Source of the DNA: a virus
IMG/VR virus record: IMGVR_UViG_3300044627_000932
Span: 1-33,642 of that record
DNA length: 33,642 nt
Direction: 5' to 3' (one strand)
In this document: piece by piece, positions 16,174 to 24,308 of the stretch
Position numbering within the stretch: the first letter of the stretch is position 1
Layout of the letters: every line of letters begins with the position of its first letter
Notes under the pieces: model-generated
Told to the model about the DNA's origin: nothing
What the model saw: the letters and a program-made list of their open reading frames with translations, nothing else
The model's database searches: none
Made by a program: the position numbers and the translations under genes

Positions 16174-16419
16174 TTACCAATTTTTGCAAGACCAATATCT
16201 AGCTGTAAATTTATCTTTAGCAGTATCGCAATTATGTCTAGCTCTAAAAGACTTACGTCTTGCAGCTATAAATTTTTTAATCTTCATCTCAGGATCACCA
16301 TACCTAACTATCTTAACTTGGTTACCCTTCTTTGCAAGAACAGCAAACTTCTTTCTTTCGCCTGGAGTTCTCTTCTGTTTATTATATCCGGAGAATCTTT
16401 CTCCTCTATAGACAACCAT
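16174..16419 (-). CDS. DUF6321-like basic protein
   Basis: 81 residues with YRGERFSGYNKQKRTP, then KKFAVLAKKGNQVKIVRYGD and RRKSFRARHNCD, ending TARYWSCKNW. This matches the DUF6321 pattern (GYNKPKRTP...HAVLAKEG...IRFG...RRKSFKARH...AYWA-x-K-x-x-W) known from cyanophages and pelagiphages. Function unknown. Shares one base with the upstream stop. Confidence 0.8.
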   Translation of the reverse strand: MVVYRGERFSGYNKQKRTPGERKKFAVLAKKGNQVKIVRYGDPEMKIKKFIAARRKSFRARHNCDTAKDKFTARYWSCKNW

Positions 16420-16655
16420 TATCTAGCTAGTGGGTTAGATGAGCTTGCTCTAAGTTCTTTCATTTGAACTTTAAGTAATTCAATTTCTTTTTGTGCAATG
16501 GCTAAGTCTTGTTTAATCTGACCAGCTTTAGCAGGATCAATGCTATCAATCTTTGACATAATCTCTCCATACTTAATAAAGCCACCACCAATAGTACCAA
16601 TGATTGCAACTGTTGCTATAATTTCCTTTAAATTATTCTTAACTTTATCTATCAT
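16419..16655 (-). CDS. Membrane-anchored coiled-coil protein (78 aa)
   Basis: 78 residues: basic N-terminus, a hydrophobic helix (about 11-30: EIIATVAIIGTIGGGFIKYG) and a coiled coil (about 45-70). The layout is that of an i-spanin or of a holin-associated protein. Being at the end of the lysis block, a spanin-like role is plausible but unproven; no partner lipoprotein is visible. Confidence 0.55.
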   Translation of the reverse strand: MIDKVKNNLKEIIATVAIIGTIGGGFIKYGEIMSKIDSIDPAKAGQIKQDLAIAQKEIELLKVQMKELRASSSNPLAR

Positions 16656-16656
16656 A

Positions 16657-18129
16657 TTAACCTTTTGTTTTTCTTAATTGTTCTAATTGGATAATAATAT
16701 CATCCTCTTCATCTTGTATTTGTTTTAACATATTTTGTCTAGCAACCAATGGATCTTTGCTTATGTAATCGTTTAGATTAACATTAACATATATAGGTTT
16801 TTGTTCTAATTGTAATTGCATAAAGAAATTAGGATTAGGAACTCCCACCATTTGTCTTTGCTGATAAAAAGGTTTAGATTCATACGCACTTAAACTAGGT
16901 TGATTAACTTTTAATGCGTCAATTTTTATCTCTTGTACTGATTTTACTTTTACTTCTGCTATCTTTACTTCCGTTCCTACTTTATTATCTGTTAGTTTTG
17001 TTTTTACTTCTTGTTGTGTACTTGTTGCAACAGGTTTTTCTTCGCTTACTGAAGTCTTAGCAGACTTATCTTCTGAACTAGAAACAGTAGTATTTTCTTT
17101 AGCTGTGGGTAACTCTTCTTTTGTAGATTTTTGTTCTTTGATTGACTCTTCTTTGTTCTGTGTTTGTTCTTTATTAACCTCTTTAGGTTGCTCTGTGGAT
17201 TGTTTTGGTTGTTCAATCTGTTGCTCTATAATCTTTTTTTCTTCAGGTGGTGCTTGAATAATAAAAGGTGTTGGATCTCCAACAAACTCTTTAATCATTA
17301 CTGGTTCTTGAATAGGTGCTATTGATGTAGGAACAATAGATAAGTTAGTATTTTGTAATGTTGTTAATGCAGCTTGTGTTGAAGTATCTAATGGACAAGT
17401 TGATGGAATATTTTGCCAACAATAAGTTATTTCAGTTGTAGTTACTAATTCAGAAGTAGTTTGAGTATTAATTTTATTATAAGAGACACTAATGTTTGGA
17501 GAAGCTACATCATACCCACTATAATTTGATGATGCAGAAGTAAAATCAAATCTTAATTTTCCTGCGTATGTATTATTGTTTGCATTAATTATTATGTTAT
17601 CTAATGGAATGTAAGTATATCCAGCTATGTTACCAGCGCTATTTCCACTTGCTGTATTGCTAGACAAAAATCTATTTTGAGTAATTGTTTCACCATTAGT
17701 TAAGTTCATTACTGATTGAGATATTGTTAAAGTCTTTTGATTATTAAACCAACTATCTACATAAGCAGAAGCAGATTGTGTAAATCCTAAATTCTGTTCA
17801 GCTTTAGTTATTCCAACAGAAGTATAAGGAGATGTAGTTTCGGCATAAGAACTAGCACCTTTGCCTGTAAGATAATTACAACCAAGATCACTAGAACCAC
17901 CAGATATATTTGTTCCAGTCCAATTAGATGAGCAGAAGTTTTGATTAATTAATAAATTTCCTGTGTTGTAAGGAAGTATTGTAGTTGTAGTTGTATCAAC
18001 TTGAGTAATTGTTATTTTTGTTGAATCACCAACTTGTGGAGTGTTTGGAGTTATCTGAACGTTTATGATTTGAGAGTATAAAACTACAGAATTAATAAGC
18101 CAAATAATAAAGGTATAAAATATAACCAT
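16657..18129 (-). CDS. Large exported protein with beta-rich and Glu/Lys-rich domains
   Basis: About 490 residues from the ATG at 18129 (a TTG at 18153 would add 8). The N-terminal segment MVIFYTFIIWLINSVVLYSQ is a signal peptide or anchor. Residues about 20-260 are a Ser/Thr/Asn-rich beta domain with GNLLINQNFCSSNW, a lectin-like or phage surface-protein pattern, and about 290-410 is a Glu/Lys/Gln/Pro spacer like a periplasm-spanning TonB linker; the end has a short helix. Envelope location is likely. It may act in lysis or as a decoy; function unknown. Confidence 0.65.
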   Translation of the reverse strand: MVIFYTFIIWLINSVVLYSQIINVQITPNTPQVGDSTKITITQVDTTTTTILPYNTGNLLINQNFCSSNWTGTNISGGSSDLGCNYLTGKGASSYAETTSPYTSVGITKAEQNLGFTQSASAYVDSWFNNQKTLTISQSVMNLTNGETITQNRFLSSNTASGNSAGNIAGYTYIPLDNIIINANNNTYAGKLRFDFTSASSNYSGYDVASPNISVSYNKINTQTTSELVTTTEITYCWQNIPSTCPLDTSTQAALTTLQNTNLSIVPTSIAPIQEPVMIKEFVGDPTPFIIQAPPEEKKIIEQQIEQPKQSTEQPKEVNKEQTQNKEESIKEQKSTKEELPTAKENTTVSSSEDKSAKTSVSEEKPVATSTQQEVKTKLTDNKVGTEVKIAEVKVKSVQEIKIDALKVNQPSLSAYESKPFYQQRQMVGVPNPNFFMQLQLEQKPIYVNVNLNDYISKDPLVARQNMLKQIQDEEDDIIIQLEQLRKTKG

Positions 18130-18169
18130 GAATTTTCTTTTGCTTCGTACCAAGCGTCTATTTCGTTAA

Positions 18170-18781
18170 CTACTTTTTTTCGGTTAAAGACTCCTGCTTT
18201 TTTGTTTCTTCAATTACTTTTAGTTTTTCAATATATAAATTATAATCTGGTCTTAGCTTGTCATACTTCAACCATTGTGCTGTTGCGTCAGCACCGATCT
18301 TACCTTCAAATGGACATGGTGTTCCTGAGTTCTCCATAGCATGGAATACTCTTGCGTCTTGGCAAAGAATAGAAACAGAAGCTACTTTCATTCCAAGATC
18401 ATTTAATACTTTTGCTAGTTTAATTCTTTCGCAATTCTCATCTCTAGTATAACTTCCACCAGATATTCCTACTCCGAATGTTGACACTCCACCACTATAT
18501 CCGACAACGCATAAGTCTTGTGAGAAGGCAGACATTGCTGGTGCTGTTGCAGTTGCAGCAACTCTAGTGTCTCCTGAATAGGCGTTAGAGGTAGAATTAG
18601 TTGTTGTAGTAGAATTAGATGAAGAACCTGATTCAAACGTTGAATTAGAGGTGCTAGTATAGCCACCAGTAATAGAAGTATTACTACCAGAAGCATTGTT
18701 CTGAGTAGTTGTTTGAGACGATGCACTAATGATTAAGCATAGTATTAAAACTATAGTTGTTGGTATAATGTTCTTTCTCAT
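18170..18781 (-). CDS. Exported protein with Ser/Thr-rich stalk (0-frame product)
   Basis: 203 residues. MRKNIIPTTIVLILCLIISASSQ is a cleavable signal peptide (motif positions 1-23). Residues about 24-85 form a Ser/Thr/Asn/Gly stalk, and about 90-180 hold a cysteine-containing domain with DLCVVGYSG, NCERIKLAKVLNDLGMKVAS, ILCQDARVFHAMENSGTPCP. This family is common in marine phages next to lysis genes. The gene ends GAA AAA AAG TAG; a -1 shift on A AAA AAG adds 29 codons (see the frameshift product). Confidence 0.72.
   Translation of the reverse strand: MRKNIIPTTIVLILCLIISASSQTTTQNNASGSNTSITGGYTSTSNSTFESGSSSNSTTTTNSTSNAYSGDTRVAATATAPAMSAFSQDLCVVGYSGGVSTFGVGISGGSYTRDENCERIKLAKVLNDLGMKVASVSILCQDARVFHAMENSGTPCPFEGKIGADATAQWLKYDKLRPDYNLYIEKLKVIEETKKQESLTEKK
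18173..18179 (-). promoter_or_regulatory. Slippery heptamer A AAA AAG before the stop codon
   Basis: Zero-frame codons GAA AAA AAG TAG hold the strongest known bacterial -1 slippery heptamer directly before the stop. AGGAG (minus strand, 18195-18191) lies 11 nt upstream, close to the 10-nt spacing of the stimulating Shine-Dalgarno in dnaX. A downstream GCTT/AAGC stem is weak. Confidence 0.6.
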
Positions 18782-18782
18782 T

Positions 18783-18908
18783 TTATTTTTTATAACCTTT
18801 TTTCTTAATTACTTTTTTAAATCTTATAACTCTTTTGTATCTTAGAGGTTCATGTGGGAATGTGATATATTCTTTTAAAAAGTTATTTATCTTCTTAAAT
18901 ATATTCAT
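18783..18908 (-). CDS. Basic microprotein in the lysis block (41 aa)
   Basis: Forty-one residues beginning MNIFKKINNFLKEYITFPHE, with a Lys/Arg-rich C-terminal half. The ATG overlaps the holin stop (two adjacent ATGs, the first at 18911). It ends 1 nt before the exported gene. Unknown function; may be amphipathic. Confidence 0.55.
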   Translation of the reverse strand: MNIFKKINNFLKEYITFPHEPLRYKRVIRFKKVIKKKGYKK

Positions 18909-19324
18909 CATTCTTTATTAGGTTGTTTATTGGCTAATGTTCTAGCTATGCTTTCACCTGATCTACCAACAACATAACCGCCTAAACCTATTTGTAATAA
19001 AGTCCAAACATCTCCTGGTAAATCAAATCCAACAACTAAACCTGTAATCATTTTAATTATTGGTGCAAAGATATAATTGAATACTAAAACAAATATTAAA
19101 ACGTACATTAATAATGGTCTCCAAGAACTTGCAAACCAACCAGCTTTAGCTTCTGCTTCTACTATTCTAGCAGCTGCTTGTAACTCTTGCGTACTTGATT
19201 GTAACAACTGTTGATTAAGTTGTGCTTTTAATTTTTCTTGTAAGTCTTTATCAGGAATAGATTTTTCAATCGTACTGAATAGTATTTTTGCTAATGGTGC
19301 TATTGCACCTAGTGCTGGTAACAT
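18908..19324 (-). CDS. 3TM holin (GTA_holin_3TM-like)
   Basis: 138 residues from the ATG at 19324; the frame is open upstream to 19378 but that part overlaps the lysozyme end. MLPALGAIAPLAKILFS, a helical middle with EAEAKAGWFASSWRPLLMYV and a pair of hydrophobic helices around residues 77-110, and DVWTLLQIGLGGYVVGRS at the end. The EAKAG...WRP pattern is that of PF11351 holins (name from memory). It would release the lysozyme by making inner-membrane holes. Confidence 0.72.
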   Translation of the reverse strand: MLPALGAIAPLAKILFSTIEKSIPDKDLQEKLKAQLNQQLLQSSTQELQAAARIVEAEAKAGWFASSWRPLLMYVLIFVLVFNYIFAPIIKMITGLVVGFDLPGDVWTLLQIGLGGYVVGRSGESIARTLANKQPNKE

Positions 19325-23546: not shown

Positions 23547-24308
23547 TTATTTATTTGGAAATTTTTTTTTTATCTCTTGTATTAAAAGTTCATCAGAAAC
23601 ATTTGGATTTGCTTCTTTATATTTCTTAAATATATCACTTGATTTAATATCAACAGGAGCTGCTGGTGCTGTCGTTACTTTTTGTTTCTGTGCATAATCA
23701 GCTAAATTTCCACCAGACATAGTAAGTAGTTGAGAAATAATATCTTGATTTCCTGCTATTTCTTTATTGTATAAATCTTGGTCAACTTTAGATAATTTTC
23801 CAAGCGCTTCTTTAAATTCAGTTGGACTTAAACCTTGTAATTTCTGAGCAACTTTTAATGCTTCACCACTAATCGTTGGAGTTTTAGGAGTTAATAATAA
23901 TTTCATTGTTTCTCTTGGAAACGCTTTGAATAATGGTTTGTATTGTTCAGGAACTTGACTACCAAATTCATCAATTGCTTTTTGTTGTTCTTGTTCTTTA
24001 GTAAAACTTCTTACAGATGAAGATACTTTTAATCCTTCAATAAAAGATGGTAATGCAGCTTCACCAATACTTTGACCCTTCATACCAGCTGATATTAAAC
24101 CTAATCCTGTTAATGCTTCTGGGCTACCAAGTAATCCCATTAAACTTAAAGTATTATTTGTCTTTCTATCAGAACCTAATAATGATTGATTTTTTACTCC
24201 CATGTCTTGCCCTAATCCCATTTCTGAATCTGCTTGTTCATTTGAACTAAGTTGGTCATTAATTCCGTAACCATAATATTTCTTTAATAATTCTGTTAGA
24301 CTGTCCAT
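23547..24308 (-). CDS. Internal virion protein candidate (253 aa)
   Basis: 253 residues, mainly helical, Gln/Leu/Lys-rich, without signal peptide. Segments LLKKYYGYGINDQLSSNEQ and GLGLISAGMKGQSIGEAALP indicate amphipathic character. It starts in TAATG overlap with the upstream 251-aa gene and lies in the ejection gene block. Role is inferred. Confidence 0.6.
   Translation of the reverse strand: MDSLTELLKKYYGYGINDQLSSNEQADSEMGLGQDMGVKNQSLLGSDRKTNNTLSLMGLLGSPEALTGLGLISAGMKGQSIGEAALPSFIEGLKVSSSVRSFTKEQEQQKAIDEFGSQVPEQYKPLFKAFPRETMKLLLTPKTPTISGEALKVAQKLQGLSPTEFKEALGKLSKVDQDLYNKEIAGNQDIISQLLTMSGGNLADYAQKQKVTTAPAAPVDIKSSDIFKKYKEANPNVSDELLIQEIKKKFPNK

Follow-up and report, generated by a model that had tools for sequence, protein, structure and literature searches.

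The stretch of viral DNA that we analysed (the window, 33,642 nucleotides) carries on its minus strand a gene for a predicted exported protein, followed by a large and a small gene of the same orientation (Table 1). The protein is laid out as an N-terminal signal-like hydrophobic helix, a low-complexity stretch, a conserved core containing cysteines (C91, C117, C140 and C156 are among its invariant residues) and a charged C-terminal helix. An earlier note on this sequence had reported that the gene ends GAA AAA AAG TAG, placing A_AAA_AAG directly before the stop, with AGGAG 11 nt upstream and a 29-codon -1 frame with a hydrophobic end, and each of these was confirmed at the coordinates of Table 1. 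The extension begins with the G of AAG, which is read a second time. Ahead of the hydrophobic stretch the -1 frame contains no ATG, GTG or TTG, in agreement with the claim that the extension has no start codon of its own. The same note had called the end of the extension a clear membrane helix; its hydrophobicity held up, but the run has just 14 residues, which is short for a complete transmembrane helix. The hydrophobic stretches of the tails measured 12-17 residues.

Table 1. Features at the exported-protein locus of the window
Feature	Position	Strand	Description
Third gene of the conserved trio	16419..16655	-	78 aa, N-terminal TM segment and coiled coil
Next gene	16657..18129	-	490-aa predicted exported protein; conserved neighbour
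-1 extension VVNEIDAWYEAKENSWLYFIPLLFGLLIL	18084..18173	-	29 codons (18173-18087) and stop TAG (18086-18084)
Hydrophobic C-terminal tail WLYFIPLLFGLLIL	18087..18128	-	Putative membrane anchor; in-frame counterparts in L019-L022 and HTVC115P
Zero-frame gene	18170..18781	-	203-aa predicted exported protein; ORF and pelagiphage isolate homologues
Zero-frame stop TAG	18170..18172	-	TAG or TAA in relatives
Slippery heptamer A_AAA_AAG (A7 run)	18173..18179	-	Abuts the zero-frame stop
AGGAG, SD-like candidate stimulator	18191..18195	-	11 nt before the heptamer; in 18/18 clade members
Second in-frame A_AAA_AAG (ACA AAA AAG)	18197..18203	-	Upstream of the first

The duplex of AGGAG with the anti-Shine-Dalgarno (anti-SD) sequence has an energy of -6.9 kcal/mol, which is equalled by 2% of synonymous variants, and the 33.6 kb window contains a single AGGAG-N9-12-AAAAAAG arrangement where 0.10 would be expected by chance. 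A7 alone is frequent, with about 20 T7 runs on the plus strand; the run is therefore unremarkable within the window alone and the significance of the site comes from comparison. The second heptamer upstream has no SD-like element at the stimulating spacing, and in some members of the clade the -1 frame is closed by a stop codon between this heptamer and the zero-frame stop, which leaves the 18173 site as the only universal one. No clear hairpin was found downstream of the window site (-4.0 kcal/mol, z -0.17), which by its predicted makeup is a dnaX-like site minus the hairpin. The dnaX-like reading of the earlier note stood for the heptamer and the SD spacing, in the window and in relatives; the downstream hairpin is missing from the window and present in the phage Mosig. 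A stable hairpin 4-10 nt downstream is part of dnaX, but not of every known site. Elsewhere in the window an A10 run (23562-23571, minus strand) lies in the ORF 23547-24308, just ahead of the stop codon of this gene, which is the one upstream of the 1023-aa ORF. Upstream of that stop the -1 frame is not open, and no fusion is therefore predicted.

Slip sites and tails among the relatives

Relatives were collected from scans of viral contigs and genome contigs and from protein searches of phage records, resulting in 206 distinct homologous loci (junctions). At 69 of the 206 the -1 frame encodes a hydrophobic C-terminal tail. This count includes five loci (L402, L423, L430, L432 and L458) added on inspection despite start codons in the zone and excludes L505, which passes the hydrophobicity rule, yet has its tail in frame. 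Among the tailed loci of the first set, none has a -1-frame start codon ahead of the hydrophobic part, and a few contain one within that part. At the remaining loci the tail is in frame (L019-L022 and most of the HTVC115P branch) or there is no tail, and tail-less relatives are many. HTVC023P and HTVC202P have no tail and carry a separate small membrane ORF that starts at an ATGA overlap. In the record of L530 (MW202481) the homologue is unannotated, its place being taken by annotations of short antisense ORFs and of the next gene.

Slip site and tail were closely associated. A_AAA_AA[A/G] in the zero frame lies within the -1-open stretch at 66 of the 69 tailed loci, and the three with a -1 tail and no heptamer (L079, L354 and L479) belong to one subclade. 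The window heptamer is kept in all 18 members of its clade and in the separate clade L026/L161-L163. When the first set of relatives was clustered at 80% identity, the heptamer was present in the last 45 nt of 18/18 tailed vs 2/21 untailed clusters (Fisher P = 3e-9; the clusters are related by descent and cluster-level P values overstate their independence). A null of synonymous codons expects the heptamer in 7.2 of the 18 tailed clusters, and 18 was reached in 0 of 100,000 draws. Codon choice pointed the same way: KKK was written AAA AAA AAA in 12/20 cases near the site vs 7/137 elsewhere in the loci (P = 1e-8), and KK stood in the A_AAA_AA[A/G] context in 30/47 vs 252/1403 (P = 1e-11). These preferences are synonymous choices, so protein composition cannot account for the A-runs. 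Together the counts strongly suggest that the runs are preserved at the synonymous level as selected slip sites. The homologue comparison proposed in the earlier note found heptamer, SD-like element and tail conserved together in relatives.

The earlier note had offered a miscount in the A7 run as the alternative, and had named homologues with an in-frame tail as a sign of a simple indel, in which an ordinary anchored gene is broken by one extra A or the A's are miscounted. Such homologues do exist, including L019-L022 at about 84% identity. However, the window's clade and others preserve the stop together with A7 and SD, which a sequencing indel does not explain. The A7-G-stop junction occurs in 18 clade members with distinct sequences from separate assemblies, it is repeated in L026/L161-L163 at about 71% identity, and the A7-G site (GAA AAA AAG) is also found in the cultured isolate Mosig. 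The -1 frame moreover remains open through substitutions and through a 6-nt indel in the L026 clade. An error in the A count is unlikely given this recurrence; a sequencing indel was rejected on the same ground, and we regard the indel reading overall as extremely improbable.

The -1 tail and neighbouring reading frames

The -1 tail could instead be a by-product that arises when the T-rich codons for the next gene's signal peptide are read in the wrong frame. In the window the tail overlaps these codons (ATG 18129) in another frame, and in many relatives it overlaps small MD..NPYDF ORFs; the hydrophobicity of the tail in the window and the MD-type relatives is therefore partly shared with another gene. 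However, in three clades (L026/L161-L163; L048/L052/L053/L075/L089/L093; L049/L050/L068) the -1 ORF stops 0-23 nt short of the next large gene, and there the -1 frame gave pN/pS of 0.44, 0.27 and 0.37, respectively, while the other frames hold stops. Six independent pairs pooled gave a modest but consistent pN/pS of 0.47 (P = 0.007). These ratios indicate that the tail is under purifying selection in the three non-overlapping clades, which rules out overlap with the next gene as a general explanation. The slip sites that appear to be selected at the synonymous level and the tails found in frame in L019-L022 and HTVC115P also argue against it. We consider a by-product highly unlikely overall and retain it for L079, L354 and L479, where it may explain the tail.

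The position of the -1 ORF also bears on the possibility that slippage is mainly a coupling device that brings ribosomes to the start of the next gene, the tail being secondary. The short gaps before the ATG of the next large gene in the clades without overlap would fit such a device. It does not require a conserved hydrophobic tail or the in-frame tails elsewhere, and in the window the -1 ORF ends 43 nt beyond the next gene's ATG, making coupling as the main function quite unlikely.

In L044, L056, L059, L061, L065 and others an ORF of 37-42 aa (MD..T...IIWS...NPYDF/NPYNF) lies right after the zero-frame stop. It shares sequence with the -1 tail, read in a second frame, and with the beginning of the large exported gene, read in a third; all three frames are apparently used over a short stretch.

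Where the tail is in frame it can be compared directly with the -1 tails. The in-frame peptide INQWYEAKDNSSSGLPFILLLLGLLVL of L019-L022 matches IDAWYEAKENSWLYFIPLLFGLLIL in the -1 frame of the window, and across this frame change the two tails gave pN/pS of 0.33-0.56. The in-frame end of HTVC115P (...NIIPMVITALAFGVAF) resembles the -1 tail of Mosig (...WITIPLMLFFGVAF), whose predicted extension is INKLWITIPLMLFFGVAF.

In a core tree of 58 rows, which has few columns and many weak forks, loci in the -1 state occur in both halves of a split with full support. The most parsimonious count of frame states on this tree is 8 changes, and the starred branches force at least 4. Within the HTVC115P branch, L402, L423, L430, L432 and L458 combine an A9 run with a -1 tail. 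The run is separated from the stop by 19-109 nt, leaving the exact slip point less clear. The tails of L402 and L423 share an acidic linker (EDEYDxTDDYAEEHP) that is conserved and precedes the position where the next gene probably starts; ahead of that position pN/pS was 0.29. L019-L022 have an A10 run at about 97-88 nt from the stop codon, on the 5' side of their in-frame tail, and a -1 shift on this run would terminate after one codon. The same two forms would result, the anchored one in the zero frame, with the frames exchanged in the manner of E. coli dnaX. A slip site like this A10 is absent from most in-frame members of the HTVC115P branch.

Slip signals and proposed products

By published criteria an SD-like stimulator lies 6-17 nt before the heptamer, and A_AAA_AAG is among the most shift-prone heptamers in E. 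coli (PMC4066793). At short-run (A6-A7) sites we found an SD-like element in the window clade, the L026 clade, L047, Mosig, L056 and L066, against a background of 11%. In Mosig, a cultured Pelagibacter phage, the heptamer and SD are joined by a 6-bp hairpin, CCGGTG-GAGAA-CACCGG, which lies six bases past the heptamer there and in L047. The hairpin has an energy of -11.2 kcal/mol in Mosig (z -4.08, matched by 0/200 shuffles) and -10.6 kcal/mol in L047. With SD, A_AAA_AAG and hairpin, both have the complete three-part dnaX signal. Most other tailed clusters have A9-A10 runs, mostly without an SD.

These longer runs raise the possibility of transcriptional slippage, in which RNA polymerase adds an A within the run and part of the mRNA encodes the anchored form. 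Thermus dnaX uses a run of A9 length for this purpose (PMC3711429), most tailed clusters have runs of such length, and the protein outcome would be identical, making RNA-polymerase slippage as likely as ribosomal slippage in the A9-A10 clades. In contrast, the window, the L026 clade, L047 and Mosig have only A7, and the window run is shorter than the minimum of 8-9 A for a transcriptional slippage gene. The dnaX-spaced SD-like elements and the Mosig hairpin act on ribosomes and count against transcriptional slippage at the A7 sites. As an account of the family as a whole we regard it as fairly unlikely. A dnaX-type site would have AAG decoded in the host solely by tRNA-Lys(UUU); in one incomplete alphaproteobacterial single-cell genome with a distant homologue, which is not a proven host, tRNA-Lys(UUU) was found twice and CUU was not found.

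Ribosomal slippage at the window site would proceed as follows. Most ribosomes would terminate at TAG, producing the 203-aa protein, which its signal peptide would direct across the inner membrane. A minority would slip back one base on A_AAA_AAG, aided by pairing of AGGAG with 16S rRNA, bypass the stop and append 29 residues, and the hydrophobic tail would hold this product in the membrane. Read in two ways, one gene would thus supply a soluble protein and a tail-anchored version of it. Throughout the family this pair could be produced through A7 and an SD, supplemented by a hairpin in Mosig, or through A9-A10 runs, on which slippage of RNA polymerase may have the same outcome.

The site, its conservation, the selection at the synonymous level and on the tail and the in-frame counterparts are read directly from the sequences; from these we infer slippage, its rate, insertion into the membrane and a role. 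That programmed -1 slippage yields a soluble exported protein together with a tail-anchored form is in our judgement highly likely. The earlier note, which had proposed this free and C-terminally anchored pair, identified the site correctly and very probably also its use, given that relatives keep the slippery site together with the SD-like element and the tail and that in-frame tails exist. With less confidence, and on balance in favour, we suggest that a dedicated slippage switch, re-invented repeatedly in a widespread marine phage family, sets the free:anchored ratio of one envelope protein, and that its slip mechanism turns over between A7 with SD (and hairpin) and A9-A10, the frames being swapped in L019-L022.

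Neighbouring genes and known systems

A holin (GTA_holin_3TM) and a lysozyme lie immediately upstream in the window, and the earlier note had placed the gene in a lysis block. This adjacency is correct for the window but did not hold as conserved context: the lysis genes are limited to the window-type group and some close relatives, and the constant neighbours family-wide are the large exported protein and the small TM/coiled-coil protein. An identity as a lysis protein was rejected for this reason. Between the holin and the exported gene there is a basic 42-aa ORF (18783-18911, minus strand), kept in the window-type group and L019-L022. Searches of Pfam found no family, and the only strong PHROG match was to 20531, which has no assigned function. 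An AlphaFold2 model from 36 sequences had a pLDDT of 55.7; its low-E Foldseek matches were only unnamed or uncharacterised phage proteins and no structural relative was found in the PDB. We propose that the three conserved genes may encode a three-protein envelope module, in which the anchored form would tether the smaller share of the protein to the inner membrane.

The phages are related to those of SAR11 bacteria, hosts that are among the most abundant in the ocean, and the system is testable in the cultured isolate Mosig. Few bacterial frameshift sites are strongly supported by comparison, and the family offers a natural series in which one recoding outcome is apparently retained while the slip signal changes. 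A limited search, with most subscription journals outside it, found no published phage case of a frameshift deciding membrane anchoring.

Features of u-spanins are an N-terminal lipobox and a C-terminal TM segment. Like u-spanins such as phage T1 gp11, the anchored form would combine an export signal at its N-terminus with a TM segment at its C-terminus, and in the window its gene is close to lysis genes. However, inspection of the window protein found no lipobox (MRKNIIPTTIVLILCLIISASSQ, in which Leu precedes Cys), there is no family match and the conserved neighbours are not lysis genes, leaving u-spanin membership unsupported. The tail assembly chaperones of the lambda G/GT type likewise have a conserved -1 frameshift that gives a C-terminally extended minority product; their slip sequences differ and the gene is unrelated to one with an export signal and a membrane tail.

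The closest likeness in signal is to E. coli dnaX (tau/gamma), which shares the in-frame A_AAA_AAG and an SD-like element about 10 nt upstream; its stem-loop about 6 nt downstream is also present in Mosig, with no clear one in the window. Unlike in dnaX, the shifted product of the phage gene would be the longer one and gain a hydrophobic tail. The A9 run of Thermus dnaX, a site of transcriptional slippage, resembles the A9-A10 runs of most tailed clusters, where this mechanism would be a candidate; gene and outcome differ. In outcome the likeness is to the Ebola virus glycoprotein, where transcriptional slippage gives a soluble vs a transmembrane form (PMC5009743). In both, slippage would decide between a soluble and a membrane-anchored form of one exported protein, although protein and host are unrelated and slippage in the phage A7 clades is likely ribosomal.
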